From Acidobacteriota bacterium (GTDB taxonomy: Bacteria > Acidobacteriota > Vicinamibacteria > Vicinamibacterales > Fen-181): DNA of 49,543 nucleotides. The notes beneath the pieces were generated by a model. It saw only the letters and a list, made by a program, of their open reading frames with translations. It ran no database searches and had not been told where the DNA came from. Location: NCBI GenBank assembly GCA_017883185.1, contig JADGOB010000012.1, positions 1-49,543 on the forward strand, read 5' to 3'. Of this stretch, positions 22,218 through 48,303 are shown piece by piece. Both the position numbers and the translations under genes were made by a program. Positions within the stretch are counted from its first letter, which is position 1; each line of letters opens with the position of its first letter.

Positions 22218-25200
22218 CTACCGCGCCGCGAACAGGCCCGTGAACCACCTCTCGAATCGGACATCGAGACAGTCGAGAGACGCGGTAGAGACCGGCCCTA
22301 CCGCGGGACCCGTCGCCGCCCCGTTGACGGGGAGAGCGGCCATCGGCGACCGGGCCGCATCCCAGATCGCGTCCGGGCCCTGGCTCCCCACCTCGACGTA
22401 CCGGTAGATGGGCGCCACGCGGCGGATCTCCTCGAACACCTCGGACGGCGCCAGGTAATTCATCTTGAAGCGCAGTCCCATCCTGGCCGCCAGCTCGGTG
22501 ATGATGCGCCAGGTCTCGATGCCCGACCGCGCCGGGATCGCCTTCCGGAGCAGCTGCACGCGCCGCTCGGAGTTGGTCATCGTCCCCGAGGTCTCTGGCG
22601 TGCTGCTCATCGGGAACACCACGTGCGCGGCCCTGGCCGTCCTGGTCGCGAACAGGTCGGCCACCACCAGGAACTCCGCGGCTTCGAGGCCCGCTCGAAT
22701 CTCCGCGGGCAGGTCCTCGGCGCCCAGCGGATCCTCGCCGAGCACCACCGCCACCTTGATCGCCTTCTCGGCCAGCAGGCGAGCCACGTCCACATCGCCG
22801 GTGTCGAGGTCCCTCAGCGACACGCTCCAGTCCTTCTCGAGGTCCTCGATGGTGCCCGCGTCGGTCACCGCGCGATAGCCCGGGTACCACGCCGGGTGCG
22901 CGCCCATGTCGAGCAACCCCTGGGCATTGGACTTCTCGTGCAGCGGCAGCACGCCGCACCCGAGGGCGGTGCCGGCCGCCGCGAGCCACGAGACGTCGCC
23001 CGCGCGCCGGACGCCGCGGTAATCGCGGTTGAAGATCAGCACCTTACGCTGGCTGCCCGCCAGGATTTCTGCGGCCTCCGTGATGGCCGCGGGATCGACC
23101 CCCGTCTTCTCGCCGATCTGCGCCGGCGACAGGCCGGCGATGGCCCCGACCAGTTCCGCTGCCGGAGGCTGGCCGGCCAGGCGCGACGCCTCGGCGACGA
23201 TGGCCTGCACGACCAGCGTCTCGGAGTCCGGCGCGCACTCGAGGAACAGTTCCGCGACCCGCGCGCTCCGGTTCTCTTTTGGCCCGATGTACACGAGTTT
23301 CGCGCCGTCCCTGATGGCCCGCTTGGCCACCAGGTCCACGACGAAGTGCTCCTCGTCGAGCCCCGAGTTCACCACCAGGATCGCCTGCGCCCGGGCGAGT
23401 TCCGGGTAGGTCGTCGTCGCCAGCACGTCGGGAGCGAAGAACTCCCGGTTCACCAGGTGGCTGAACGAAGTCACGTTGTGCGTGCGGAGCGCCACCCGCG
23501 CGAACTTCTGCGCAAGGTAGATCTCTTCGTTGGTGAGCCTGGGCGAGACGAACACGGCGATTTCCCGCGGAGAGTACTTGCGGGACAGTTCCTTCAGCCG
23601 CAGCGCCGCGTGGTCCAGCGCCTCTTCCAGGGGCACCTCGATCGCCGCCTGCCCGTTGTGCACGCGCGCGGTCAGCAGCCGGTCGTGCGCGTGGACGAAG
23701 TTGAACCCGAACCGTCCCTTCCGGCAGTGATTGCCGAAGGTCACGTCGTTCCGTTCGTGGCGCGACACCTTCACGAGCGTGTCGCCGAAGGTGTCGTAGT
23801 TGATCCGGCAACCGACGCCGCAGTAGTGGCAGACGCTCTCGGTCGACTCGGTTTTCCAGGGCCCCGGCTTGGCCAGCGGGAGGCGCTGCGCGATCGCGCC
23901 GGTCGGGCACGTGCCGATGCACAGGCCGCACGCCACGCACTCGGTGTCCAGCAGCGACCCGCCGAGCGCCGGCGCGACCACGGTGCTGAACCCACGGTTG
24001 ATGAAGCCGTACGCCGAGACGCCGACGACGTCGTTGCAGATCCGGACGCAGCGGCCGCACAGGATGCACTTGTTGGCGTCGAGCTCGATCAGCGGGTGCG
24101 AGATGTCGCGCTCGTGCTGCCGCGCCTCGCCCATGAAGTGCTTCACGTCCACGCCGTACTCGGTCGCGTACTTCCGGAGGTCGCAGTCGAACAGCGCGAC
24201 GCAGCCGCACTCGAGACACCGGGTGGCCTCTTCGCTCAGGTCGGCGGCCGAGTAGCCCAACTCGACCTCGACGAAGCTGTTCACCCGCTGATCGATCGGG
24301 ATCAACGGGATGTGCCGCTTCGCCTTCTTCTCCTGCGACCGCAGGTCGTGGATCCCGACCTTCGAGAACACGTCCTTCCGGCTGAGGAACTCCTCGGGCT
24401 CCGGCCGCACCGTCCCCTCGCGGATGTAAGTGTCGATCGCGTACGCCGCCTTGCGCCCGGCCGCGATCGCCTCGATCGCGGTGGCCGCCCCGGTCACCAC
24501 ATCGCCGCCCGAGAACACGCCGTCCACCGTGGTCTCGAACGTCTTCTCGTTCACCTGCACGGTCTGCCAGCGGGTCAGACCGAGCGACTCGCCCTGCGGC
24601 AGGAAGTTCGGGATCTTCCCGCCCACCAGGTCGGCGACCGTCGTGCTCTGCCCGATCGCCGAGATGATGAAGTCACACGGCTCGACGTATTCGGAGCCGC
24701 GAATGGGCTTCGGGCTCCGCCGCCCGGAGGCGTCGGGCTCGCCCAGTTCCATGCGCTGGCACTCGATCCCCTTGAGCGCCCCGTTCTCGTCGGTGACGAC
24801 CCTGGTCGGCGCGATCAGGAACTGCATCGTCACGCCTTCCTCGATCGCGTCCCTGATCTCGGAGTCGTTGGCGGGCATCTCCACGCGCGTCCGGCGATAC
24901 AGGAGCTTCACCTCGCCCACGCCCAGGCGGATCGCCGTCCGGGCGCAGTCGATCGCCGTGTTGCCGCCCCCGACGACGGCCACCGTGCCGTGGATGTCGA
25001 TCTTCTTGCGCAGGCCGAAGTCCTTGAGGAACTCGATGCCCGAGAGCACGCCGGCCGCGTTCTCGTTCTGGACGCGCATCAACGAGCTGCGCCACGCGCC
25101 GATCCCCAGGAACACCGCGTCGAACTGCTCCCGCAGGCTGGCCAGCGTGAAGTCTTTCCCAAGGAACGTGTTCGTCTTCAGGCGCGGCCCGAGGCCCAGG

Positions 25201-25964
25201 ATCTGGGCAATCTCGAGGTCGAGCACGTCTTTCGGCAGGCGATACTCGGGGATGCCGTACCGCAGCATGCCGCCCGGCTCGGGCTGCCCTTCGAGGATCT
25301 CGACCTCGTACCCCTTGATCGCCAGGTAGTACGCCGCCGAGAGCCCCGCGGGCCCGGCCCCGACCACAGCGACCTTCTTGCCATTCGAGGCCGCGACCTT
25401 AGGCCGGTACACGTCGGGGCTGTTGAGGTCGAGGTCGCTGATGTAGCGCTTGATGTAGTCGATCCCGACCGCCTCGTCCAGGAGCGTGCGCCGGCACCCC
25501 TTGACCTCGCACGGCCTGGTGCACACGCGGCCGCACACCGACGGCAGCGGGTTGCTCTCCTTGATGAGCGCGATCGCGTCCTTGTATTTCCCGATCGCCG
25601 CCAGCGCGATGTAGCCCTGGATGTCGATGCCGGCCGGGCAGGAAATCTGGCAGGGCCCGACGCAGTCGGCGTAGTGATCCGACAGCAGGAGCTCCAGCGC
25701 GGCCTTGCGCGACTGCCGGACCTCGGCCGAGTTGGTCTCGATGACCATCCCGTTGAGAACCTTGGTGGCGCAGGCGGGCATCAGCGACCGCGCCCCCTTC
25801 ACCTTCACCACGCAGACGAAGCACGAGGCAAACGGCTCGAGCTGCGCATCGTCGCACAGCGTGGGAATGGTCTGGATGCCTTGCCGACGGGCGACCTGGA
25901 GGATCGTCTGGTTGCCGTCCGCCATCACCCGCTTGCCATCTATTTCCAGCTTCACAAGCGCCAT
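22218..25964 (-). CDS. NuoG/HydA-type Fe-S subunit fused to GltD/NfnB-like NADPH domain and FDH-like domain
   Basis: 1248 residues. Domains in order: 2Fe-2S ferredoxin (C37, C48, C51, C65); GltD/NfnB-type N-terminal 4Fe-4S region (C101, C105, C109, then VCGRVCTRPCEVKGC); FAD/NADPH Rossmann pair (VGAGPAGLSAAYYL and VVGGGNTAIDCARTAIRLG); double 4Fe-4S ferredoxin (CILCGRCVRIC near 633 and CVACGLCIGTCP); molybdopterin-oxidoreductase Fe4S4 domain (CHYCGVGC near 712, GNHCRKGRFG) and about 480 residues of MopB fold. The position of the catalytic Cys/Sec of formate dehydrogenases reads NVTSFSHLVN, with neither residue, so this part is NuoG-like. The start ATG 25964 lies 11 bases after the NuoF-like stop. 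The first two-thirds match the large subunit of Stn-type electron-bifurcating transhydrogenases. Confidence 0.85.
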   Translation of the reverse strand: MALVKLEIDGKRVMADGNQTILQVARRQGIQTIPTLCDDAQLEPFASCFVCVVKVKGARSLMPACATKVLNGMVIETNSAEVRQSRKAALELLLSDHYADCVGPCQISCPAGIDIQGYIALAAIGKYKDAIALIKESNPLPSVCGRVCTRPCEVKGCRRTLLDEAVGIDYIKRYISDLDLNSPDVYRPKVAASNGKKVAVVGAGPAGLSAAYYLAIKGYEVEILEGQPEPGGMLRYGIPEYRLPKDVLDLEIAQILGLGPRLKTNTFLGKDFTLASLREQFDAVFLGIGAWRSSLMRVQNENAAGVLSGIEFLKDFGLRKKIDIHGTVAVVGGGNTAIDCARTAIRLGVGEVKLLYRRTRVEMPANDSEIRDAIEEGVTMQFLIAPTRVVTDENGALKGIECQRMELGEPDASGRRSPKPIRGSEYVEPCDFIISAIGQSTTVADLVGGKIPNFLPQGESLGLTRWQTVQVNEKTFETTVDGVFSGGDVVTGAATAIEAIAAGRKAAYAIDTYIREGTVRPEPEEFLSRKDVFSKVGIHDLRSQEKKAKRHIPLIPIDQRVNSFVEVELGYSAADLSEEATRCLECGCVALFDCDLRKYATEYGVDVKHFMGEARQHERDISHPLIELDANKCILCGRCVRICNDVVGVSAYGFINRGFSTVVAPALGGSLLDTECVACGLCIGTCPTGAIAQRLPLAKPGPWKTESTESVCHYCGVGCRINYDTFGDTLVKVSRHERNDVTFGNHCRKGRFGFNFVHAHDRLLTARVHNGQAAIEVPLEEALDHAALRLKELSRKYSPREIAVFVSPRLTNEEIYLAQKFARVALRTHNVTSFSHLVNREFFAPDVLATTTYPELARAQAILVVNSGLDEEHFVVDLVAKRAIRDGAKLVYIGPKENRSARVAELFLECAPDSETLVVQAIVAEASRLAGQPPAAELVGAIAGLSPAQIGEKTGVDPAAITEAAEILAGSQRKVLIFNRDYRGVRRAGDVSWLAAAGTALGCGVLPLHEKSNAQGLLDMGAHPAWYPGYRAVTDAGTIEDLEKDWSVSLRDLDTGDVDVARLLAEKAIKVAVVLGEDPLGAEDLPAEIRAGLEAAEFLVVADLFATRTARAAHVVFPMSSTPETSGTMTNSERRVQLLRKAIPARSGIETWRIITELAARMGLRFKMNYLAPSEVFEEIRRVAPIYRYVEVGSQGPDAIWDAARSPMAALPVNGAATGPAVGPVSTASLDCLDVRFERWFTGLFAAR

Positions 25965-25975
25965 AGGAGTGCCTC

Positions 25976-27742
25976 TCAGTCCTTCGCAATCGCGCCCAGG
26001 TTGCAGACCTTGTAACACTCACCGCAGACGGTGCACTTCGCCTGGTCGATGACGTGCACCTTCTTCCGCTCGCCGGTGATGGCGCCGACCGCGCACGCCT
26101 TCAGGCAGAGCATGCAGCCGCTGCAATCGTCGGTGATCGTGTAGGTCAGCAGCTTCTGGCAGTGGTGGGCCGGGCACTTCTTGTTGGTGAGGTGCGCTTC
26201 GTACTCGGACCGGAAGTACTTCAGGGTCGTCAGCACCGGATTGGGCGCCGTCTGTCCGAGGCCGCAGAGCGACGAGTTCTTCACGCGAGCGGCCAGGTCC
26301 TCGAGCAGCTCGATGTCGCCGTCCCGCCCGCCACCTTCGGTGATCCGCGTCAGCACCTCCAGCATGCGCTTGGTGCCGATCCGGCAGAAGGTGCACTTGC
26401 CGCACGACTCGCGCTGCGTGAATTCCAGGAAGAACCGGGCGACGTCCACCATGCAAATGGTCTCGTCCATGACGACGAGGCCGCCCGAGCCCATGATCGC
26501 GCCGGTCTTGTTGATCGACTCGTAGTCGATCACCGTGTCCTGGAGCTCGGCCGGGATGCAGCCCCCGGACGGCCCGCCCATCTGGACCGCCTTGAACTTG
26601 CGATCGTCGCGGATGCCGCCGCAGATGTCGAAGACGATCTCGCGGATCGAGATGCCCATCGGCACCTCGACGAGGCCGCCGTGGCGAATCTTTCCCGCCA
26701 TCGCGAAGACCTTCGTGCCCTTGCTGTTCGCCGTGCCGAGCGAGTTGAACGCCTTCGCGCCGTTGATGACGATCCACGGCACGTTGGCGAAGGTCTCGAC
26801 GTTGTTGATGGAGGTCGGCTTCTCCCACAACCCCCTGGTCGCGGGGAACGGCGGGCGGACGCGCGGCATCCCGCGCTTGCCCTCGATCGACATCATCAGC
26901 GCGGTTTCCTCGCCGCACACGAAGGCGCCCGCGCCTTCCTTCAGCTTTACGTGGAACGAGTGGGTGCTCCCCAGGATGCCGTCACCCAGGAAGCCGCGCT
27001 CCTGTGCCTGCGCGATCGCGATCGTGAGCCGTTCGATCGCTTTTGGGTACTCCGCGCGCACGTAGATATAGCCGTGGTCCGCCCCGATGGCGTACCCGGC
27101 GATGATCATCCCCTCGACCACCGAGTGCGGATCGCTCTCCAGGACGGAGCGGTCCATGAACGCGCCCGGGTCGCCTTCGTCGGCATTGCAGATGATGAAC
27201 TTCTCCGTGCCGGGCGCCATGCGCGTGAAGCGCCACTTCATCCCGGTGAGGAAGCCCGCACCGCCGCGGCCGCGCAGCCCCGACTCGATCATGACGTTGA
27301 CGAGACCGTCCGGGTCCTTCGCCTCGATCACCTTCTGCAGCGCGAGGTAGCCGCCCGTCCTGATGTACTCGTCGATCGACTCGGGATCGATGTTCCCGCA
27401 GTTCCGCAGGACAATGCGATGCTGACGCGAGAGGTAGGCGTGATCGCTGCCCTTGCCGCCGCTCGTCCAGACCAGCCAGTCGGTAATCGGCGCCCCCTGG
27501 CCGAGGTGCTCGTCGATCAGCCGCCCGACCTTGTCGGGGCTGATGTGGCCGTACAGATACCGCACACCGTCGCCGTTGCTGATCTCGACGAGCGGTTCCT
27601 GGTAGCACATGCCCACGCACCCGGTGCGCTGCAGCTCGGGCGCGTCCGGCAGGCTCGCCAGCTTCGTCTCGAGCGCCGTGAACGTCTCCTCGGCGCCAGC
27701 CGCAATCCCGCACGTCGAAAGGCCAACGGTGACCCGCGTCAT
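25976..27742 (-). CDS. NuoF/HndC/HydB-like NADH-binding flavoprotein
   Basis: 588 residues. N-terminal thioredoxin-like 2Fe-2S domain (STCGIAAGA and TGCVGMCYQEP), NuoF core with NADH/FMN-binding segments RGRGGAGFLTGMKW, ICNADEGDPGAFMDR and GAGAFVCGEETALMMSIEG, SLBB domain, 4Fe-4S motif ESCGKCTFCRIGTKR with the distal Cys in SSLCGLG, and a C-terminal double ferredoxin (CSGCMLCLKACAVGAI and CTVCGECYKVCNLGAI). This is the layout of the flavin-bifurcating beta subunits of HydABC, HndABCD and Stn complexes rather than respiratory NuoF, which lacks the C-terminal ferredoxin. Translation is coupled to the NuoE-like gene by a 4-base overlap (ATGA at 27739-27742). Confidence 0.93.
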   Translation of the reverse strand: MTRVTVGLSTCGIAAGAEETFTALETKLASLPDAPELQRTGCVGMCYQEPLVEISNGDGVRYLYGHISPDKVGRLIDEHLGQGAPITDWLVWTSGGKGSDHAYLSRQHRIVLRNCGNIDPESIDEYIRTGGYLALQKVIEAKDPDGLVNVMIESGLRGRGGAGFLTGMKWRFTRMAPGTEKFIICNADEGDPGAFMDRSVLESDPHSVVEGMIIAGYAIGADHGYIYVRAEYPKAIERLTIAIAQAQERGFLGDGILGSTHSFHVKLKEGAGAFVCGEETALMMSIEGKRGMPRVRPPFPATRGLWEKPTSINNVETFANVPWIVINGAKAFNSLGTANSKGTKVFAMAGKIRHGGLVEVPMGISIREIVFDICGGIRDDRKFKAVQMGGPSGGCIPAELQDTVIDYESINKTGAIMGSGGLVVMDETICMVDVARFFLEFTQRESCGKCTFCRIGTKRMLEVLTRITEGGGRDGDIELLEDLAARVKNSSLCGLGQTAPNPVLTTLKYFRSEYEAHLTNKKCPAHHCQKLLTYTITDDCSGCMLCLKACAVGAITGERKKVHVIDQAKCTVCGECYKVCNLGAIAKD

Positions 27743-28209
27743 GACCGCTCCCCCTTCTGGTACTTCTTCACAACCTTCACCGCGGCGGACGGGCTCAGGT
27801 TGCCGAACGTTGCGCCGTTGATCATCATGGCGGGCGCGAGCGAGCAGCACCCGAGGCACGACACCGTCTCGATGCTGAACATCCGGTCGGCCGTCGTCTC
27901 CCCGTTCGGCACGCCGAGGTGCTTCTCGACCGCCTGGCTCAACTCGACCGCGCCGCTCACGTGACACGCGGTGCCGTGGCAGGCACGCAACAGGAACTTG
28001 CCCACCGGCTTCAGCCGGAACTGCGCGTAGAAGGTGGCCACCCCATAGATGTGTGCCAGGGGGATCCCCGAGAGCTTGTGGATCTCCTCGAGCCGCTCAC
28101 GACGCAGATAACCGTCCTCGGTCTGCGCCTGCTGCAGGAGCGGGATCAATCGCCCCTCCTGCCCCGCGAAATGCTGGTTCTTGAAGTTGTACCGCCGGTG
28201 GGTGTGCAT
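27739..28209 (-). CDS. NuoE/HndA-like 2Fe-2S subunit
   Basis: 156 residues with the thioredoxin-like 2Fe-2S fold: helical N-terminus LIPLLQQAQTEDGYLRRERLEE, then VATFYAQFRLKPVG, and four cluster ligands in CHGTAC and CLGCC. Partner of the NuoF-like subunit in NADH-linked flavin/Fe-S complexes. Overlaps the next gene by 4 bases. It starts 18 bases after the zinc-ribbon gene, so four genes form one unit. Full length and no unusual substitutions seen. Confidence 0.93.
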   Translation of the reverse strand: MHTHRRYNFKNQHFAGQEGRLIPLLQQAQTEDGYLRRERLEEIHKLSGIPLAHIYGVATFYAQFRLKPVGKFLLRACHGTACHVSGAVELSQAVEKHLGVPNGETTADRMFSIETVSCLGCCSLAPAMMINGATFGNLSPSAAVKVVKKYQKGERS

Positions 28210-35226: not shown

Positions 35227-37422
35227 CTATGCCTCCGCCTCGAGGGTGACGAAGTTGACATTCATCCCGGTGCCTCCCATGAGCGGGTCGGTGGCATAGC
35301 GGGTCACCAACTGCGCGTCGCTCGCGCCCTTGCCAAGCGCGCGCGTGAGCCTCTTCGAGGTGTGGCCGAAGCCGTGCACCATGTAGACGCAGTCCGGCCG
35401 GATGCGCTCGGTGGCTTTCAGCCGGATGCGCGCGCTCAGCACGCCGTCCTGGTTTCGCAGCCGGACGTAGGCGCCGTCGGTCAGCCCCAGCCGAGTGGCG
35501 ACGTGCACGTTCACCCACACTGCGTTCTCGGACATGCCGTCGTGGAGGATCGGATTCGACTGCGTGCGGCTGAACGAGTGCATGGGCGCGCGGCCGAACA
35601 GCAGGCGGAACGAGCCCTCTGGCGGCGGCTCGGGGCGCGTGAACTTCGGGACCGGATCGAAGCCGGCCTCGCGCAGCGTCGTGGAGTAGAAGTCGATCTT
35701 GCGTGAGGCCGTCGGGAAACTCGCCTCGGCTCCCTCGTCGAAAAACACCGGCTGCTTCTCGCCGTGAATGATCCCCTGCTTCTTCAGCGTGTCGAAGCTC
35801 AGGCCCGCCTTCGTCAGGCGGTAGTCCAGGTACTCTTCGATCGTCGTCCACGGGTAGTAGGCGCCGAGCCCGAGCCTGAGCGCCAGCTGCCGGGCAATCC
35901 ACCAGTTCGGCTTCTGTGCGTGAGGGGCGTGCACGACCGGCTGCCGCAGGGCCACGAACGGCTCGCGGAACCACTCGACGTTGAGGTCGTCGTAGCGTTC
36001 CAGGTAGGTGGTCTCGGGCAGCACCACGTCGGCCCACCCGGCGATCTCGCTCGGGATCACGTCCACGACAACCAGGAGATCCAGCGCCTGGATGGCGCGA
36101 ATCGTCTCCCGCTGGTCGGGCATCGCCTGCAGCAGGTTCGTGGCGTAGACCATCCACCCTTTCACCGGGTACGGCGCGCCGGTGATCGTCGCCTCGCGGA
36201 TGCCGGTGGTCAGCGCCTCGCTCGCGAACGGGTACTTCCCGTTCGGGTTGTCCACCTTCCCCTTGTCGGGCTTCGGATAGGGTGGGTACGGATAACCTGG
36301 CACGGTCATCTGCACCGGCTTCCAGAACCCGCCCTTCCGCCCCCAACTCCCGAGCAACGCGTTCAGCAGCGCGATCGCCCGGCTTCTCTGCGTATCGTCG
36401 CCGTACCAGGTCGCGTGGCGGCCGGGGTGCACGAGCGTCGCAGGCCGGTGCCGGGCCATCTCGCGGGCGGTTTCACGGATCACCGAGGGCTCGATGCCCG
36501 TCTCCGGGTACGCCCACTCCGGCGTGGAACTCGCAATCTCGGCCTTGAACGTGTCGAAGCCGAAGCCGTGTGCGTCCACGTACTCCTTGTCGTAGAGCCC
36601 TTCGGTGACGAGCACGTTCATCCAGGCCAGCAGCAGCGCGAGGTCGGCGCCGGGCTTGATCGGCAGGTAGTGCTTCGCCTTGCTCGCCGCCACCGAGAAC
36701 CGGGGGTCGACGACGATGATCGACGCGCCGGCGCCGATCGCCTCGGCGAACTCCTGCGCCTGCGTGTTGTGCATGTTCTCGCCGAGGTGCGAGCCGATGA
36801 GCACCAGGCAGCGAGCGTTGCGGATGTCGGTTCGTTCGGGCGACCCGACTTCCTCACCGAAGGTCAGGGCGAACCCCACGTCGCGCGGGCCGCGGCACTG
36901 CGCGAAGGAGGGCGCGGCCATGTTGGGCGTGCCGAACGCGCGCAGCGTGTGCTTCAGGAAGGTGCCGCCGATGCCGTGCGAAAAGAGCGCCACCGCTTCC
37001 GGGCCATACTCGGCCTTGATCTTCTGCAGTTTCTCGGCCACCACGTTGAGCGCTTCGTCCCAGGTGACCTCGGCCCATTCCTCCTGCCCGCGCTTCTGGC
37101 GCCGGACGAGCGGCGCCTTCAGCCGGTCGGGATCCACGTGCGCGCCGACACCGCCCGTGCCACGCGGGCACAGTCGTCCTCGGCTGAGAGGGTCGGCCGG
37201 GTTGCCTTCGATTTTCCAGAGCTGCCCATCCCGCACGTACGCAATCGCCCCGCACTTCCAGAAGCAGATGTCGCAGTAGGTGGGAACCGTCCGGACACCC
37301 GTCTCGGGCGCCTCCGCGACCGCACCGCCCCGGGCGAGGCCGCCCGCGACCGAGCCGGCGGCGGCCAGCCCGGCTGTTGTGCCGGAAATCTGGAGGAAAC
37401 GTCGCCTGGAAACCGTGATCAT
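35227..37422 (-). CDS. Tat-exported molybdopterin oxidoreductase, PsrA/PhsA-like
   Basis: 731 residues from ATG 37422. A Tat signal SRRRFLQISG opens the protein, so it works in the periplasm. The N-terminal Fe4S4 site is CDICFWKC plus the Cys of RLCPRG. The likely molybdenum ligand is the Cys in SFAQCRGPRDVGF (about 175). Domains that bind bis-MGD follow (IIVVDPRFSVAASKAKHYLPIKPG, then the C-terminal LTDGAYVRLRNQDGVL). Closest in style to polysulfide/thiosulfate reductase catalytic subunits. It begins the cluster with Fe-S and NrfD-like subunits, YeeE transporter halves and a rhodanese-like protein. Reduction of polysulfide or thiosulfate, or the reverse, fits; sulfite or other oxyanion substrates are not excluded. 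No TorD-type chaperone gene is present. Confidence 0.9.
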   Translation of the reverse strand: MITVSRRRFLQISGTTAGLAAAGSVAGGLARGGAVAEAPETGVRTVPTYCDICFWKCGAIAYVRDGQLWKIEGNPADPLSRGRLCPRGTGGVGAHVDPDRLKAPLVRRQKRGQEEWAEVTWDEALNVVAEKLQKIKAEYGPEAVALFSHGIGGTFLKHTLRAFGTPNMAAPSFAQCRGPRDVGFALTFGEEVGSPERTDIRNARCLVLIGSHLGENMHNTQAQEFAEAIGAGASIIVVDPRFSVAASKAKHYLPIKPGADLALLLAWMNVLVTEGLYDKEYVDAHGFGFDTFKAEIASSTPEWAYPETGIEPSVIRETAREMARHRPATLVHPGRHATWYGDDTQRSRAIALLNALLGSWGRKGGFWKPVQMTVPGYPYPPYPKPDKGKVDNPNGKYPFASEALTTGIREATITGAPYPVKGWMVYATNLLQAMPDQRETIRAIQALDLLVVVDVIPSEIAGWADVVLPETTYLERYDDLNVEWFREPFVALRQPVVHAPHAQKPNWWIARQLALRLGLGAYYPWTTIEEYLDYRLTKAGLSFDTLKKQGIIHGEKQPVFFDEGAEASFPTASRKIDFYSTTLREAGFDPVPKFTRPEPPPEGSFRLLFGRAPMHSFSRTQSNPILHDGMSENAVWVNVHVATRLGLTDGAYVRLRNQDGVLSARIRLKATERIRPDCVYMVHGFGHTSKRLTRALGKGASDAQLVTRYATDPLMGGTGMNVNFVTLEAEA

Positions 37423-37532
37423 GATGACCGTTCCGAGCGGCACCCGCGGTTCTGGCCGGATGCGCGCACTTGTGAAGACGAGCACAATCGCCGGCACAGG
37501 CGGGGCCGGCGCTATCCTTCAGGACAAGAGAT

Positions 37533-40130: not shown

Positions 40131-40158
40131 GCCGTCAAGCAGAAGGAGTGACGTTGTC

Positions 40159-41880
40159 GTGAGCATCAGAACCATCGCCTGCATCGCCGTCGTGTTGGTG
40201 GTCGTCATGGTCGCCGTCGTCACGGCGCAGTTGCCCGGCGACCGACCCGCGCCCAATCCGCGCTCGACACGATCGGTCGTGATGGCCCGCCGCGGCATGA
40301 TGGCCACCAGCCAGCCGCTGGCGTCCGCCGCCGGACTGCAGGTGCTGCGCGAGGGCGGCAACGCGATTGACGCGGCAGTCACGGCTGCCGCGGTGCTCTC
40401 CGTCGTCGAGCCGACGATGAACGGGATCGGGGGAGATCTGTTCGCGATCGTCTACGACGCGAAGACGAAGCGGCTGACAGGGTTGAACGCAAGCGGCCGC
40501 GCCGGACGCGCGGCGACACCCGAGGAATTCGCGCGTCGCGGCGTCACGAAGATGCCCGAGTTCGGACCGCTTGCCGTCACCGTGCCCGGCGTCGTTGACG
40601 GGTGGAGCAGCCTGCTCGAGCGGCACGGCACGATCACGCTTGGTCGTGCGCTCAGGCCGGCCATCGAGTATGCCCGCGACGGCTTCCCGGTGTCCGAGAT
40701 CATCGCCGAGCAGTGGAAGGGTGAACAGAAGAGACTTGCGGCCGACCCGGCCGCCGCCGCGACGTTCATGCCCGACGGTCGCGCGCCGTTGCCGGGGCAG
40801 GTGTTCCGCAACCCTCGCCTGGCTGCAACCCTCGAGCAGGTTGCCGCGGGTGGGCGTGACGCCTTCTATCGCGGGCCCATCGCCGCCGCGATCGCCGCCG
40901 ACATGCGCAAGCGGCAGGGATTGCTGGACGAGAACGACTTCGCGGAGCACCGTTCAGACTGGGTGGAGCCCATCTCCACGAGCTACCGCGGCTACGACGT
41001 CTTCGAGCTGCCGTTCAACACACAGGGCTTTGTCGCGCTCGAGATGCTCAACATCCTCGAGGGCTTCGACCTGGCGCCGCTCGGGCACAACTCGGCGGCG
41101 TATCTTCATCTGCTGATCGAGGCCAACCGAATCGCCTTCGCCGACCGTGCTGCCTACCTGGCCGACGCTGGCGCCGTGCCGTCCTCCACGATGACGATGC
41201 TGATCTCCAAGGACTACGCGGCGGCCAGGCGGAAGGAGATCCAGTCGGACCGCGCGGCGGCATCGTACGCTCCCGGCCGGCCGCCGACCGGCGGCAATCG
41301 CGCGGCGCCCCTCGCGTTCGACATCACCGCCACCGGCGACACGATCTACCTGACCGCCGCGGATGGACAGGGCAACGTCATCTCCCTGATCCAGTCGCTC
41401 TACGACGCCTTCGGCGCAGGAATCGTCGCAGGTGAGACCGGGATTGCGCTTCAGAACCGCGGGGCGCTGTTCACGCTGGAGAAAGGACACCCGAACCGGA
41501 TCGCGCCGGGCAAACGCCCGTTTCACACGCTCGTGCCGGCGATGGTGATGAAGGACGGACGTCCGTGGCTCTCGTTCGGCGTGATGGGCGGCGACATGCA
41601 GCCGCAGGGACACGTCCAGGTGCTGCTCAACCTGATCGAGTTTCACATGAACATCCAGGAGGCTGGAGAGGCGGCCCGCTATCGCGTGACGGCCTCCGGT
41701 GTCGCGCTCGAGTCGGCGATTGGGGCCGACACGAGGGCCGGCTTGACCACGCGCGGGCACAACGTGCGGAACGGGTTCGGGATGTGGGGCGGGTTCCAGG
41801 GAATCCTGATCGATCCGCGAACCGGCGTGCTGATGGGCGGTTCCGACCCCCGCAAGGACGGTCTCGCGATCGGGTATTGA
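40159..41880 (+). CDS. Gamma-glutamyltransferase family protein
   Basis: 573 residues from GTG 40159, with AGAAGGAG 10 bases upstream. A signal anchor (IRTIACIAVVLVVVMVAVVTAQ) exports it. Family landmarks: MARRGMMATSQPLASAAGLQ, LREGGNAIDAAVTAAAVLSVVEP, GIGGDLFAIVYD, and the autoprocessing site in ATGDTIYLTAAD, where the Thr after GD aligns with the catalytic N-terminal Thr of the small subunit (the second Thr usual there is Ile). Also VMGGDMQPQGHVQVLLN near the end. These enzymes cut gamma-glutamyl bonds, for instance in glutathione. The small-subunit sequence is of the YwrD-like kind, whose substrates are less defined. The next gene is a large exopeptidase, 113 bases on. Confidence 0.9.
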   Translation: MSIRTIACIAVVLVVVMVAVVTAQLPGDRPAPNPRSTRSVVMARRGMMATSQPLASAAGLQVLREGGNAIDAAVTAAAVLSVVEPTMNGIGGDLFAIVYDAKTKRLTGLNASGRAGRAATPEEFARRGVTKMPEFGPLAVTVPGVVDGWSSLLERHGTITLGRALRPAIEYARDGFPVSEIIAEQWKGEQKRLAADPAAAATFMPDGRAPLPGQVFRNPRLAATLEQVAAGGRDAFYRGPIAAAIAADMRKRQGLLDENDFAEHRSDWVEPISTSYRGYDVFELPFNTQGFVALEMLNILEGFDLAPLGHNSAAYLHLLIEANRIAFADRAAYLADAGAVPSSTMTMLISKDYAAARRKEIQSDRAAASYAPGRPPTGGNRAAPLAFDITATGDTIYLTAADGQGNVISLIQSLYDAFGAGIVAGETGIALQNRGALFTLEKGHPNRIAPGKRPFHTLVPAMVMKDGRPWLSFGVMGGDMQPQGHVQVLLNLIEFHMNIQEAGEAARYRVTASGVALESAIGADTRAGLTTRGHNVRNGFGMWGGFQGILIDPRTGVLMGGSDPRKDGLAIGY

Positions 41881-41993: not shown

Positions 41994-44900
41994 ATGCCGC
42001 GATTCACTCGCCCGAATGCCAGCCCCTCGAAGTTGACGCTGCGCCTCCTGACGTTGGTGGGTGTACTGCTCGCCGCGGGCGCGCCCTCAGGACAGGAGCG
42101 TCGCGCTGAGGGACCTCGCCCCATCACCGCTGCCGACTACGCCCGTGCCGAGCACTTTCTTGGACCAGGCGTGAACCCGTTGGTCATCGGCGGCCAGGTC
42201 ACGCCCAACTGGCTTTCGGACGATCGATTTTGGTATCGCAACCAGGTCTCCGACGGGTACGAGTTCATCCTGGTCGATCCCGTGGCCCGGACTCGGAAGC
42301 CGGCCTTCGACCACGCCAGGCTGGCGGCCGCGCTCTCGGCCGCAGCCAGGGGCCCTTACACGGCCCATACCCTGCCGTTCCAGTCCATCGAATTGTCCGG
42401 GGACATGAAGTCGCTCTCCTTCGACCTCAACGCCCGCCGTTGGACCTGCGATGTCCTCGGCGTGCGGTGCGCGGACACCGGCACCGCCACCGGCCGCAGC
42501 ACGGCCGCCGGAGCGGGGCGCCCGGCCGGGCGTGGCCAGGGACGTCTCGACGTGCCGTCACCGGACGGAACGCGCACGGCATTCATCCGCGACTGGAATC
42601 TCTGGGTTCGCGACGTCGTTACGGGACGGGAACGTCAGCTCACGAGGGACGGGGTCAAGTATTTCGGCTACGCCACGGACAACGCCGGCTGGAGCAGCAG
42701 CGACCGCGCGGTTGTCCTGTGGTCACCCGACTCGAAGAGGATCGCCACCTACCAGCAGGATGAGCGGGAGGTTGGCGAGATGTACCTGGTCAACACGCCG
42801 GTCTCGCCCGTCACACACCCGACGCTCCGGGTCTCCAAGTTCCCGCTGCCCGGCGACACGGTCATGGCCATGCTCCACCGCGTCATCATCGATGCCGACT
42901 TGGGCCAGGTCCTGCGCCTCCAGATGCCGCCGGACTTCCACCGCGCCACGCTCGGAGACGACGTGAGCCTCGACGACTGGAAGTGGAGTCCCGATGCGCG
43001 GCAGTTCGCGTTCATCTCCACCTCGCGGGATCACAAGGAGGCGGTCCTGCGTGTCGCGGACGCGGCCACCGGTTCGGTGCGGACCATCATCAGCGAGAAG
43101 GTGGCCACGCACTACGAGTCCCGGATCGGCTGCCAGGTGCTGTGGAGCTCGAACGAGGTCCTGTGGTACTCGGAGCGCGACAACTGGGGGCACCTCTTTG
43201 TCTACGACCTCACCACCGGCTCGTTGTTGCACCAGGTGACGTTCGGTGAAGGTCCCGTGATGCAACTGCTGCGGCTCGACGAGAAGACTCGGACCGTGTG
43301 GTTCCAGGCCCAGGGACGTGATCCCGGCGAGGACCCGTACTTCCGTCACGTGTACCGCATCGGGCTGGACGGCAAGGGCTATACATCCCTGACGCCCGTC
43401 GTCTCCGACCACACCGCTCAACTCTCGCCGTCCGGCCGATTCCTGATCGACACCTACTCCCAGCCCGACCAGGAGCCGGCGGTCGCCCTGCGGAATGGCG
43501 ACGGCAAGTTTGTCATGATGCTCGAGAAGGCCGACATCTCGAGACTCAGGGCCTCGGGCTGGCAGCCGCCGATGCCCATCAAGATGAAGGCACGTGACGG
43601 CAAGACCGACATCTGCGGCCTCCTCTTCAGGCCCACGAACTTCGATCCCGCGCGGAAGTATCCGATCGTGAACAACGTGTACCCGGGACCGCAAACGGGG
43701 TCGACGGGCAGTCGCGCGTTTGCCGCCGCGCGTGGCGACCGCCAGGCCCTCGCCGAACTCGGGTTCATCGTCGTCACGATCGACGGCATGGGCACGCCGG
43801 GCCGCTCGAAGTCGTTTCAGGATGCCTATTACGGCGCGATGGGTCGCGACAACACGATTCCGGACCAGATCGCGGGCATGAAGGAACTTGCCGCCAGATA
43901 CTCATGGATCGATTTGAGCCGCGCCGGCATCTGGGGCCATTCCGGCGGCGGATTCGCCACGACGACGGCCATGTTCCGCTTCCCCGATTTCTTCACGGCG
44001 GGCATTGCCGAATCGGGTAACCACGACCAGCGCCTCAACGAAGACGACTGGGGCGAGCGATACCAGGGGCTGGTGGTGCGCACTCCCGACGGCACGGACA
44101 CCTACGCGGCCGAGGCCAACCAGGAGTTTGCGAAGAACCTGAAGGGGCACCTGCTCCTGGCGCACGGCACCATGGACACCAACGTGCCGCCGTACCAGAC
44201 GATGCTCGTCGTGGACGCGCTCATCAAGGCGAACAAGGACTTCGACCTGCTCATGCTGCCGAACCAGAATCATGGATACGGCTCGGCGTCGGCCTACATG
44301 ATGCGCAAGCGCTGGGACTACTTCGTGAAGCACGTGATGGGCGTCGAGCCTCCGAAGGAGTACCTGATGCAGCAGGCGGGCACCGGGCGGGGAACCGCTC
44401 CCGGCGCGCCCCCGGCACCCGGCGCCGCCCCTGCCCCGGCGGCGCCGACGAAGGCCGACCTGCTGCGCGGCGCCTACGGGCCGTACCGCGCCAACAACGA
44501 CCTGCTGTCGTATCACCTCGACATCCGCGTCGACCCTGAGAAGAGGTACATCAGCGGCAAGAACACCATCCGGTTCAGGATGCTGAAGGATGACACGCGC
44601 ATCCAGCTCGACCTGGTTGACGTGCTCAGCATCGACAAGATCCTGATTGGTACGACTGCGCTGAAGTTCGAGCGCGAAGCCGGCGCGGTGTTCGTTGATT
44701 TCCCGGAAACCCTCAGGCGCGGAAAGACCTACGCCATCGACTTCTACTACTCAGGGAACCCGAAGGAGACCGGCCGGTTCGGCGGCCTCGCGTTCCGCAA
44801 GGACCCGGCGGGGCGTCACTGGATCAACACGGCGTGCCAGGGCATCGGTGCGAGCGTGTGGTGGCCGAACAAGGACCAGCTCCAGGACGAAGTGGAGAGC

Positions 44901-45989
44901 ATGCGCCTGAGCGTCTCGATCCCGAACGACCTGGTCGATGTCTCGAACGGGAAGTTCATGGGCAAGACCGACCTCGGCGACGGCTACACGCGCTGGGACT
45001 GGTTCGTGCAGTACCCCATCAACAACTACAGCGTGTCGCTGAACATCGGGAAGTACGTGCACTTCACCGATACGGCGAACGGGATGACGCTGGATTTCTA
45101 CACCCTGCCCGAGAGCCTCGAGAAGGCGAAGAAGCAGTTCGCGCAGGCGAAGTCGATGATCGAGTGCTTCGAGAAGTACTTCGGCGAATACCCGTTCAAG
45201 AAAGACGGCTACAAGCTCATCGAGGCGCCCTACTCCGGCATGGAGCACCAGAGCGCCGTCACCTACGGCAACCATTTTGCGAACGGGTATCTCGAGCGCG
45301 ACTGGACGGGCGTTGGCGTGAGCTTGAAGTTCGACTTCATCATCATCCACGAGAGCGCCCACGAGTGGTTTGGGAACAGCATCACCGACGCCGATGTGGC
45401 CGATATGTGGATCCACGAGGGCTGGGGCACCTACATGGAGTGCCTCTACGTCGAGCACATGTTCGGCTACGACGACGCGCTGAAGTACACGAACGGCTAC
45501 AAGTCCAAGGTGCGCAACCGCGAACCCATCGTGCCGGCGCGCGGCATCAACCGCACGCCGCCGCAGGACATGTATTTCAAGGGCGCGCTCTTCATCCATA
45601 CGCTGCGCAGCATCGTCAACGACGATGCCCGCTGGTGGCCGCTCGTGCGCGGGTTCTACCAGCACTTCAAGTACCAGAACATCACCACCGACGACGTCAG
45701 CGGGTTCTTCAACCAGAAGATCGGGAAGGACCTGACACCGATCTTCGACCAGTACCTTCGGCAGGCTCTTCTGCCCACGCTGGACCTCCAGTTCCTGGAG
45801 GGTGGCCAGGTGGCCTATCGCTGGACGGCGGGCGTGAAGGAATTCAACATGCCAATCAAGATCGGCCAGAAGGGCAAGTGGCAGGTCATCACGCCCACCA
45901 CCGACTGGAAGATGATGACGACCGCCTTGAAGAAAGAGGACTTCGACGTCGCGACGGACCTGTACTACGTGAACGTCAGCAAGCAGTGA
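41994..45989 (+). CDS. Two-enzyme fusion: S9B dipeptidyl peptidase plus M1 aminopeptidase
   Basis: 1331 residues from ATG 41994. A signal peptide (LTLRLLTLVGVLLAAGAPSG) opens it. Residues about 60-490 form the DPP-IV beta-propeller (FWYRNQVSDGYEFILVDP, then KRIATYQQDEREVGEMYLVN). The alpha/beta hydrolase follows, with nucleophile Ser650 in GHSGGGF, Asp728 in GTMDTNVP and His760 in NQNHGYG. A Gly/Ala/Pro linker (about 797-825) leads to an M1 metallopeptidase with HESAH (1119-1123) and Glu1142 in WIHEGWG, 18 residues later; the substrate motif GAMEN is replaced by YSGMEHQ. Both active sites are complete, so one secreted chain may remove dipeptides and single residues. Codons upstream of 41994 overlap the transferase gene in another frame and are not coding. 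Confidence 0.9.
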   Translation: MPRFTRPNASPSKLTLRLLTLVGVLLAAGAPSGQERRAEGPRPITAADYARAEHFLGPGVNPLVIGGQVTPNWLSDDRFWYRNQVSDGYEFILVDPVARTRKPAFDHARLAAALSAAARGPYTAHTLPFQSIELSGDMKSLSFDLNARRWTCDVLGVRCADTGTATGRSTAAGAGRPAGRGQGRLDVPSPDGTRTAFIRDWNLWVRDVVTGRERQLTRDGVKYFGYATDNAGWSSSDRAVVLWSPDSKRIATYQQDEREVGEMYLVNTPVSPVTHPTLRVSKFPLPGDTVMAMLHRVIIDADLGQVLRLQMPPDFHRATLGDDVSLDDWKWSPDARQFAFISTSRDHKEAVLRVADAATGSVRTIISEKVATHYESRIGCQVLWSSNEVLWYSERDNWGHLFVYDLTTGSLLHQVTFGEGPVMQLLRLDEKTRTVWFQAQGRDPGEDPYFRHVYRIGLDGKGYTSLTPVVSDHTAQLSPSGRFLIDTYSQPDQEPAVALRNGDGKFVMMLEKADISRLRASGWQPPMPIKMKARDGKTDICGLLFRPTNFDPARKYPIVNNVYPGPQTGSTGSRAFAAARGDRQALAELGFIVVTIDGMGTPGRSKSFQDAYYGAMGRDNTIPDQIAGMKELAARYSWIDLSRAGIWGHSGGGFATTTAMFRFPDFFTAGIAESGNHDQRLNEDDWGERYQGLVVRTPDGTDTYAAEANQEFAKNLKGHLLLAHGTMDTNVPPYQTMLVVDALIKANKDFDLLMLPNQNHGYGSASAYMMRKRWDYFVKHVMGVEPPKEYLMQQAGTGRGTAPGAPPAPGAAPAPAAPTKADLLRGAYGPYRANNDLLSYHLDIRVDPEKRYISGKNTIRFRMLKDDTRIQLDLVDVLSIDKILIGTTALKFEREAGAVFVDFPETLRRGKTYAIDFYYSGNPKETGRFGGLAFRKDPAGRHWINTACQGIGASVWWPNKDQLQDEVESMRLSVSIPNDLVDVSNGKFMGKTDLGDGYTRWDWFVQYPINNYSVSLNIGKYVHFTDTANGMTLDFYTLPESLEKAKKQFAQAKSMIECFEKYFGEYPFKKDGYKLIEAPYSGMEHQSAVTYGNHFANGYLERDWTGVGVSLKFDFIIIHESAHEWFGNSITDADVADMWIHEGWGTYMECLYVEHMFGYDDALKYTNGYKSKVRNREPIVPARGINRTPPQDMYFKGALFIHTLRSIVNDDARWWPLVRGFYQHFKYQNITTDDVSGFFNQKIGKDLTPIFDQYLRQALLPTLDLQFLEGGQVAYRWTAGVKEFNMPIKIGQKGKWQVITPTTDWKMMTTALKKEDFDVATDLYYVNVSKQ

Positions 45990-46375: not shown

Positions 46376-46455
46376 TGGTGTGCTTCTCGATCCTGTAACG
46401 GCGACCCGGAGGCCGAGTGGCCGCAGGAAGTTGCCGGAACGGAGCGGGCGAGGGT

Positions 46456-48303
46456 ATGGTAGGCGCGATGGCCCTGCACGATGTGAACGGAGCCGACAGG
46501 TACCGGGAGGCGGCATCGCGCCACGCGGCGGAACGCGGTCGCCATGCACAGCGCTCGCGCCGGCTGTCGTACGCGCGGCTCGCGGTGTTCCTGGCCGCAA
46601 CCGCGAGCGTGTTGTCGGCATTCCCTGGCCCCGTCTCCTTCGCATCGCTTCGGATCGGGGCTGGCATGGCAGGCTTCATCGTGTTCTTCATCCTCGTCTA
46701 CTGGCACAGCCAGGTGGAGGCGTTGGAGCGCTGGTTCGCGACGCTGGCGCAGGTGAACACCGACGCCGCGGCGCGCGTGAACCGCGAATGGGACCAGCTG
46801 ACGCCTGCCGCCATTGCGGGCCCTGGCCCCGGGCATCCGTACGCCGACGACCTCGATATCTTCGGCCATGCGTCCGTCTTCCAGTTGCTCGGCTGGGTTG
46901 GCACTGAAGCGGGGCGCACGACGCTGGCCGACTGGCTCACGCGAGGTGCGAGTCCCGCGACGGTTCGCGACCGCCAGCAGGCCGTCGCGGAGCTGGCGCC
47001 CCTCGAACGCGTGCGCGAGGAGTTCGCGGCACTCGGCCGGATCGTCGAGCCAGCCCCCCAGGCGCTCGAAGGCCTCTACGCATGGGCGGAAGCGGGCCCA
47101 TGGTTCACCAGGACATGGTGGGCGGCCTGGGTGGTCCGGGGGCTGGCTGCCCTGATGCTCGGCCTGCTGGCCGCGCACATCGCCGGCGTCATCGACCGGC
47201 CCCTGTGGCTGTATCCGCTCGTCGTCTCGATCGGCCTGATGGTGGCGTTCGGGAAACGGACCGCGCACACGTTCACCCACGTCTTCTCGCGCTACGGCCT
47301 GCTCCAGCAGCACGGGGAGCTGTTCGCCTGCATCACCGGCACGCCGTTCACGTCGCCCTGCCTCAGGCGCCTGCAGGCCGACCTCCAGAAGTCGGGGATG
47401 ACGGCCGCCTGCGAGATGGCGCGGCTCTCGCGGATCGGACAGTTCGCCGACCTGCGCCTGGTGGTGCTGTTCCACCCCGTGATTACCCTGCTGACGCTCT
47501 GGGACTTCCACGTGCTCATCGAGCTCGAGCGCTGGCAGGTCCGGACGGCGCCTCACCTTCGACGATGGTTCGCCGCGCTCGGTGAGTTCGATGCGCTCGC
47601 GGCCCTCGCGTCGCTGTCGCACGACAATCCTGGATGGGCGTTTCCGGAGATCGTCGAATCGGCCACCGCGATCGAAGCCCGGCAACTCGGCCACCCGCTG
47701 ATTGCCGCGGACCGCCGGGTGCCCAACGACGTGTCGGTCGGCCCGCCGGGAGGCTTCCTCCTCGTCACCGGCTCGAACATGTCGGGCAAGAGCACGCTGC
47801 TGCGCGCGATCGGCGTGAACGCGGTGCTGGCACAGGCGGGCGCGCCGGTCTGCGCCGAGCGCATGCGGTTGCCGCCCCTCTCGATCTGCACGAGCATGCG
47901 CGTGCAGGACTCGCTGGAGGAGGGGGTGTCGTACTTCATGGCGGCCCTCCAGCGGTTGAAGCTCGTGGTGGCCGCCGCGAGGACCGTCCGGGATGGCGAG
48001 CCGATGCTGCTCTACCTGCTCGACGAGGTGCTGCAGGGCACGAACACCGCCGAGCGCCAGGTCGCGGTTCGCCGCATTCTCCGCCATCTGCTGACGCTTC
48101 GCGTGGTTGGCGCGGTCACGACCCACGACCTGGAACTGGCGGCCTGCGACGAACTCGAAGCAGGATGCCATGCGGTGCACTTCAGCGAAGCCGTCGAACA
48201 CCACGAGCAGGGGCTCCGCCTGTCGTTCGACTACCAGCTGAAGCCCGGCGTCGCCACGTCGCGCAACGCCCTGAAGCTGCTGCAGATGGTGGGGCTGGAC
48301 TGA
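46456..48303 (+). CDS. Membrane-associated MutS-like ATPase
   Basis: 615 residues (ATG 46456; ATG 46468 also possible). Two hydrophobic helices near the N-terminus (LAVFLAATASVLSAF and GAGMAGFIVFFILVYWH) and two central ones (VVRGLAALMLGLLAAHIAGV and LWLYPLVVSIGLMVAF) suggest a membrane protein. The C-terminal ABC-type ATPase of the MutS family is intact: Walker A TGSNMSGKST, signature DSLEEGVSYFMAALQRL, Walker B LLYLLDEVLQGTN and the TTHDLEL switch. There is no mismatch-recognition domain, so it is not canonical MutS. Similar membrane MutS-like proteins are known in several phyla without an assigned function. It is flanked by a cyclophilin relic on the opposite strand. Confidence 0.88.
   Translation: MVGAMALHDVNGADRYREAASRHAAERGRHAQRSRRLSYARLAVFLAATASVLSAFPGPVSFASLRIGAGMAGFIVFFILVYWHSQVEALERWFATLAQVNTDAAARVNREWDQLTPAAIAGPGPGHPYADDLDIFGHASVFQLLGWVGTEAGRTTLADWLTRGASPATVRDRQQAVAELAPLERVREEFAALGRIVEPAPQALEGLYAWAEAGPWFTRTWWAAWVVRGLAALMLGLLAAHIAGVIDRPLWLYPLVVSIGLMVAFGKRTAHTFTHVFSRYGLLQQHGELFACITGTPFTSPCLRRLQADLQKSGMTAACEMARLSRIGQFADLRLVVLFHPVITLLTLWDFHVLIELERWQVRTAPHLRRWFAALGEFDALAALASLSHDNPGWAFPEIVESATAIEARQLGHPLIAADRRVPNDVSVGPPGGFLLVTGSNMSGKSTLLRAIGVNAVLAQAGAPVCAERMRLPPLSICTSMRVQDSLEEGVSYFMAALQRLKLVVAAARTVRDGEPMLLYLLDEVLQGTNTAERQVAVRRILRHLLTLRVVGAVTTHDLELAACDELEAGCHAVHFSEAVEHHEQGLRLSFDYQLKPGVATSRNALKLLQMVGLD

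Follow-up and report, generated by a model that had tools for sequence, protein, structure and literature searches.

The serine peptidases closest to the protein studied here, DPP IV (MEROPS S9B; PmDAP IV, PDB 5yp1; human DPP4) and the prolyl tripeptidyl aminopeptidase PDB 2d5l, share with it a beta-propeller and hydrolase fold, a catalytic triad and an oxyanion Tyr. On the metallopeptidase side, the M1 enzymes LTA4H, IRAP/ERAP and the short two-domain M1 enzyme of Deinococcus radiodurans (PDB 6a8z) have in common with it an N-terminal beta domain and a thermolysin-like catalytic domain, the HExxH-x18-E zinc site, a catalytic Tyr and the GxMEx Glu. The tricorn protease is a propeller-gated serine peptidase that works in series with an M1 aminopeptidase factor; it is cytosolic and does not belong to S9, and its factors are separate proteins. 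Here we describe a gene of an Acidobacteriota bacterium which encodes an S9 and an M1 peptidase in one chain. It lies in a stretch of 49,543 nucleotides (the window), which is one entire contig (JADGOB010000012.1) of a 4.85 Mb draft genome of 395 contigs. No paper on an S9-M1 fusion was found in the open-access literature and, as far as that literature tells, this joining of two known peptidase families was previously undescribed. The architecture is unusual but its parts are ordinary: the families are known, and only the way in which their domains are combined is new.

The reading frame starting with the ATG at 41994 and ending with the stop at 45989 has 1331 codons and no internal stops. It encodes a signal-like N-terminus, an S9 module (residues ~36-790), a 25-residue linker and a three-domain M1 module (~820-1331), and its matches to DPPIV_N, Peptidase_S9, Peptidase_M1_N and Peptidase_M1 all exceed the Pfam gathering cut-offs (Table 1). 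No lipobox was seen among residues 1-33, and the chain, whose N-terminus is a putative Sec signal peptide, is probably exported. The first-pass annotation of this DNA had described a secreted chain with two intact peptidase sites joined by a Pro/Ala linker. Alignment placed Ser650, Asp728, His760, HESAH (1119-1123) and Glu1142 where it had put them, the sites are conserved in the relatives, and the linker was found at residues 795-819, where it is rich in Gly as well; only the word secreted has to be softened to probably secreted.

A whole-chain search of relatives detected full-length fused proteins in three other genomes, one of the host's family (G005, 72% identity) and two of another family of the same order (G010, 75%, on a 288 kb contig; G022, 74%, on a 72 kb contig). 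When read, all three frames were single and open across both domains. In G001, whose copy is 96% identical, the contig begins within the end of the S9 part and continues in frame through the linker and M1. G002 carries a fused gene on a contig of 1.7x coverage (L065), from which approximately 180 propeller residues are absent. The in-frame loss in G002 (L065 5854-9249; L148) is joined at similar QxTxG repeats and may be a real deletion or an assembly collapse. With the host these make six fused genomes among the 193 of the class. This M1 was present in 38 of the 162 genomes of the order, as a separate gene in most of those read, and each fused genome had only one copy of it. Outside the order no fusion was found in 396 genomes of the phylum, in the 80 best loci from 84,980 species genomes or in 72,556 plasmid records. 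Since the same single-frame architecture recurs in independent genomes, the fusion is a genuine and inherited, if patchy, architecture, and the earlier statement that the two families are known only as separate enzymes has to be given up.

The alternative that a misassembly or a frameshift in the linker had joined two neighbouring genes, a concern raised when the gene was first annotated, is refuted by these genomes and retains practically no probability. Apart from the fragmentation of the draft nothing speaks for it, whereas the same junction is present in other genomes on contigs of 288 and 72 kb, the M1 signal peptide is missing at the junction, and a neighbouring S9-M1 pair in that order was not seen among the loci read.

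The junction itself suggests how the fusion could have arisen. Unfused S9 relatives have Gly/Pro-rich tails (e.g. PPKEYQMQQPAGGRGGTPPGR and GVEPPKEYQMQQPAGGRGGTPPGR, each ending at the stop codon) matching the S9 side of the linker GVEPPKEYLMQQAGTGRGTAPGAPPAPGAAPAPAAPTKADLLRGAYG, and unfused M1 relatives have a signal-like N-terminus followed by ...TRADILRGAYG (e.g. VAQTPQRTVTRADILRGAYG), matching its M1 side. In the linker the C-terminal tail of S9 thus meets the post-signal N-terminus of M1, and the M1 signal peptide is gone. Because of these matches, S9 with its own tail appears to have been joined just past the place of M1 signal cleavage. Separate export of an M1 product from the fused gene is unlikely, because the nearest ATG upstream of M1 (residue 792) still belongs to the tail of S9, and M1 has no signal peptide ahead of it.

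In one genome of the same phylum but of another class (G346), an M1 gene is followed on the same strand, after a gap of 12 bp, by a separate S9 gene; no further adjacent M1-S9 pairs were found in the family and order of this genome. The pair speaks for a connection between the two partners without supplying the direct ancestor of the fusion. The tree of the S9 half united the four complete fused copies, though at a low support of 48, and placed an unfused copy (G458) nearby. In that of the M1 half the copies of f1 and f5 stood apart, and a clade of all six fused copies was marginally rejected (p-AU 0.041). Two fusions, or one fusion followed by exchange or splitting, are both possible on these trees.

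The M1 module is joined to partners other than S9, too, judging from the frames of related genes. In G075 (L051 1501-4587, - strand, G075:C152) a member of the same M1 subfamily follows an N-terminal region of about 490 amino acids without Pfam match, in one frame of 1029 amino acids within the locus with the start left open. In G080 and G081 (L059 1441-4572, + strand; L063 1-3132, - strand) the subfamily has a C-terminal extension of about 500 amino acids whose last part is a DUF1223-like domain carrying an ACPPC motif, the DUF1223 match being just below the cut-off. This extension is conserved in at least two genomes, and a frame in G082 is similarly long.

The S9 half has the fold and the chemistry of its family. 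Its AlphaFold2 model (predicted local distance difference test score, pLDDT, 89.6) had DPP4, FAP, DPP8/9 and prolyl tripeptidyl peptidase as best PDB matches (Z 34-36, root-mean-square deviation 3.3-4.5, across 609-659 residues), and the best sequence match was PDB 2d5l (E 2e-59). The propeller strands of the model begin near residue 79, well ahead of the DPPIV_N match. Pfam, alignment and fold all indicate a beta-propeller followed by an alpha/beta hydrolase domain with a Ser-Asp-His triad, which was nearly invariant (Table 1) in an alignment of 97 relatives of at least 50% identity; the oxyanion Tyr563 was invariant (97/97).

The substrate-binding residues give a different picture. DPP IV enzymes fix the N-terminus of the substrate by a double-Glu motif in propeller blade 4. 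In the bacterial DPP IV PmDAP IV this anchor is the double Glu 208-209, which has been termed essential to exopeptidase activity, and a Pro/Ala-specific S1 pocket is formed by Asn614, Val639, Trp642, Tyr645, Tyr649 and Val692 (PMC5807507). No double-Glu motif was found in the S9 half, where GYATDNAGWSSSDR replaces DWVYEEE/EFVADEE, nor elsewhere in the 97-member subfamily; in its place there is a segment GYAT(D/N)NAGW, of which G225, Y226, A227, T228, N230, A231, G232 and W233 are each present in all 97 relatives, and the helix of this region is absent from the model. The six S1 positions are occupied by Gly651, Asn676, Gln679, Asn682, Trp686 and Val731, so that the first four PmDAP IV residues have no equivalents and Tyr649 is replaced by Trp. 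Asn682 was shared by only five of the 97 sequences, among them the fused copies and their nearest unfused relative, and 92 had Tyr. The nucleophile motif is GHSGGG, not GWS(Y/N)GG, and the M1 module at the C-terminus is a further difference from DPP IV. Asp237 (Asp in 75/97) stands at the column of the first Glu in the MAFFT alignment, and could provide an alternative anchor for the substrate amine, but a pairwise alignment places Ser234/Ser235 there.

The S9 half thus lacks the DPP IV determinants that were tested, although it might act as an exopeptidase in some other way. With the double Glu and the greater part of the prolyl S1 pocket missing, nothing indicates that it releases dipeptides or cleaves X-Pro bonds; the label dipeptidyl peptidase and the passing of X-Pro bonds, both proposed in the first-pass annotation, should for now be dropped. 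The host genome encodes an unfused S9 paralogue as well (L169, G000:C46; 58% identical), with GGSGGG replacing GHSGGG. Another S9 relative (L069, 59% identity) was found in a metagenome-assembled genome titled Candidatus Kuenenia, probably on a mis-binned or mis-named contig, or through transfer.

The M1 model (pLDDT 85) matched LTA4H (Z 38, root-mean-square deviation 2.6-2.8, over 415-420 residues), IRAP/ERAP/PepN over domains I-III (Z 35-38 together with LTA4H), the short enzyme of D. radiodurans (Z 36) and PDB 1z1w (Z 35.8), the tricorn factor F3. PepN and IRAP have a helical domain at the C-terminus that the model lacks. The HExxH-x18-E site and the catalytic Tyr are in place: the zinc ligands H1119, H1123 and E1142, the general base E1120, Tyr1194 and the Glu of GMEHQ were invariant in the alignment of 39 relatives. 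GMEHQ occupies the position of the GxMEN motif of known M1 enzymes, with the Glu retained and Asn replaced by His in all 39. Aminopeptidase is the natural reading of this half from its sequence. One M1 relative (L144, 73% identity) was found in a metagenome-assembled genome titled Betaproteobacteria, again probably on a mis-binned or mis-named contig, or by transfer.

Stand-alone relatives of both halves occur in Acidobacteriota, Gemmatimonadota, Bacteroidota and Xanthomonadales (approximately 50-73% identity for S9, 56-75% for M1), where they are annotated as DPP IV N-terminal domain-containing protein and M1 family metallopeptidase. They have the same catalytic residues as the fused chain but are encoded by two genes instead of one, and each product typically starts with a signal-like N-terminus of its own. 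The fusion ties these two peptidase subfamilies of environmental bacteria, both large and for the most part uncharacterised, into one chain, which by the 'Rosetta stone' argument suggests that both act on the same substrates. It also draws attention to a large protein group that is annotated by the DPP IV N-terminal domain and lacks the DPP IV recognition residues.

Taking these observations together, the fused chain is probably a secreted single-chain two-enzyme peptide scavenger. An S9 gene with a Gly/Pro-rich tail would have been joined in frame to an M1 gene minus its signal peptide and, because of that loss, one signal sequence would now export the two activities together, always at a ratio of 1:1. 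The S9 module would be a DPP-IV-fold serine peptidase of a broad bacterial subfamily without the DPP IV substrate-end anchors; its propeller would probably let in short peptides for cutting, and it might work as an oligopeptidase, or as an exopeptidase with another anchoring mode. The M1 zinc aminopeptidase would then take single residues off the N-termini of the S9-made pieces. More tentatively, S9 might represent a new specificity class, propeller-gated and without double-Glu anchor, that hands its products to the tethered M1 outside the cell, and the covalent S9-M1 chain might, with the same reserve, be an extracellular counterpart of tricorn and its separate factors. Several points weigh against the scavenger. 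With the DPP IV determinants missing, the specificity of S9 is not deducible; the fusion occurs in so few genomes of the class that the partnership does not depend on it; and the adjacent gene pair was found in one genome only, in the order opposite to that of the fusion.

Three other explanations of the fused chain have to be considered. If the S9 module were a true dipeptidyl peptidase, the chain could alternate between removing dipeptides and single residues and pass X-Pro bonds. The DPP IV fold, the intact triad and Tyr563 would suit such an enzyme, as would the conserved Asn730, Glu683 at the place of Asp646 of PmDAP IV, and Asp237, which could serve as a lone amine anchor; nevertheless, the lack of the double Glu and the five substitutions in the S1 pocket make this rather improbable. 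It is also unlikely that the chain is cut in the linker into two independent enzymes, so that the fusion would couple only their expression and export. The linkers contain many small residues and Pro, and neither their length nor their sequence is constant among the fused relatives; residues 1-17 of the M1 model, a part of the linker, have pLDDT <50; on the other hand, the linkers have no conserved cleavage site, and linkers of such composition are often stable.

There is still less to recommend the view that one module is catalytically dead or that the two were joined by neutral accident and to no functional effect, which we regard as quite improbable. The patchy occurrence would be in line with it, and so would the M1 tree, whose weak rejection of a single fused clade implies that gain and loss may come easily. 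However, the catalytic residues of both halves are conserved in the fused and near-invariant in the unfused relatives, and the fusion has been kept in two families at 72-75% identity. The scavenger thus remains the explanation that we favour.

Table 1. Coordinates of the fused gene, its domains and key residues in the window, and of the adjacent gene pair of G346
Feature	Position	Strand	Basis or remark
Fused S9-M1 peptidase gene	41994..45989	+	1331 amino acids; single open frame; full-length relatives in G005, G010, G022
Signal-peptide-like N-terminus, residues 1-33, hydrophobic core LLTLVGVLLAA at 18-28	41994..42092	+	Hydropathy
DPPIV_N beta-propeller, residues 189-493	42558..43472	+	Pfam 1e-55; AlphaFold2 model
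Segment GYATDNAGWSSSDRA, residues 225-239, where DPP-IV has double-Glu helix	42666..42710	+	Alignments; model
Peptidase_S9 alpha/beta hydrolase domain, residues 583-781	43740..44336	+	Pfam 1e-43
Nucleophile Ser650 in GHSGGG	43941..43943	+	97/97 in S9 subfamily
NHDQRLNEDDW, residues 676-686, at S1 pocket positions	44019..44051	+	S9 alignment
Catalytic Asp728	44175..44177	+	95/97 in S9 subfamily
Catalytic His760	44271..44273	+	96/97 in S9 subfamily
Pro/Ala/Gly linker, residues 795-819	44376..44450	+	Compared with unfused S9 tails and M1 N-termini
Peptidase_M1_N domain, residues 839-1006	44508..45011	+	Pfam 5e-8
Peptidase_M1 catalytic domain, residues 1051-1254, small beta domain after	45144..45755	+	Pfam 2e-20
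GMEHQ, residues 1082-1086, variant of GxMEN exopeptidase motif	45237..45251	+	39/39 in M1 subfamily
Zinc motif HESAH, residues 1119-1123	45348..45362	+	M1 alignment
Third zinc ligand Glu1142 (HExxH-x18-E)	45417..45419	+	39/39 in M1 subfamily
Tyr1194, counterpart of M1 catalytic tyrosine	45573..45575	+	39/39 in M1 subfamily
Adjacent M1-S9 gene pair of G346	L160 5025-9041, G346:C22	-	12 bp between genes

A gamma-glutamyltransferase (GGT) gene (40156-41880, Pfam 5e-156) is located on the same strand and ends 113 bp upstream of the fusion. It had been noticed in the first-pass annotation, which suggested that the pair may serve peptide or glutathione scavenging. The gene is there, but no GGT match was found at the fusion loci of G002, G005, G010 and G022 (up to 20 kb each; 9.8 kb for G005), and GGT was rejected as part of a peptidase unit on the basis of this comparison, to which G001 did not contribute as its contig begins inside the fusion gene. 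A role shared with the fusion is therefore a guess from one genome. Directly downstream (46417-48303, +) lies a gene for a protein with a C-terminal MutS domain V (ATPase) and no other Pfam domains; this neighbour is kept in G001 and is functionally unrelated to the peptidase fusion. Elsewhere in the window there are a large pair of NuoF/G-like and molybdopterin oxidoreductase genes, formate-dehydrogenase-like (22218-27967, -), and a second molybdopterin oxidoreductase gene (35227-37497, -).

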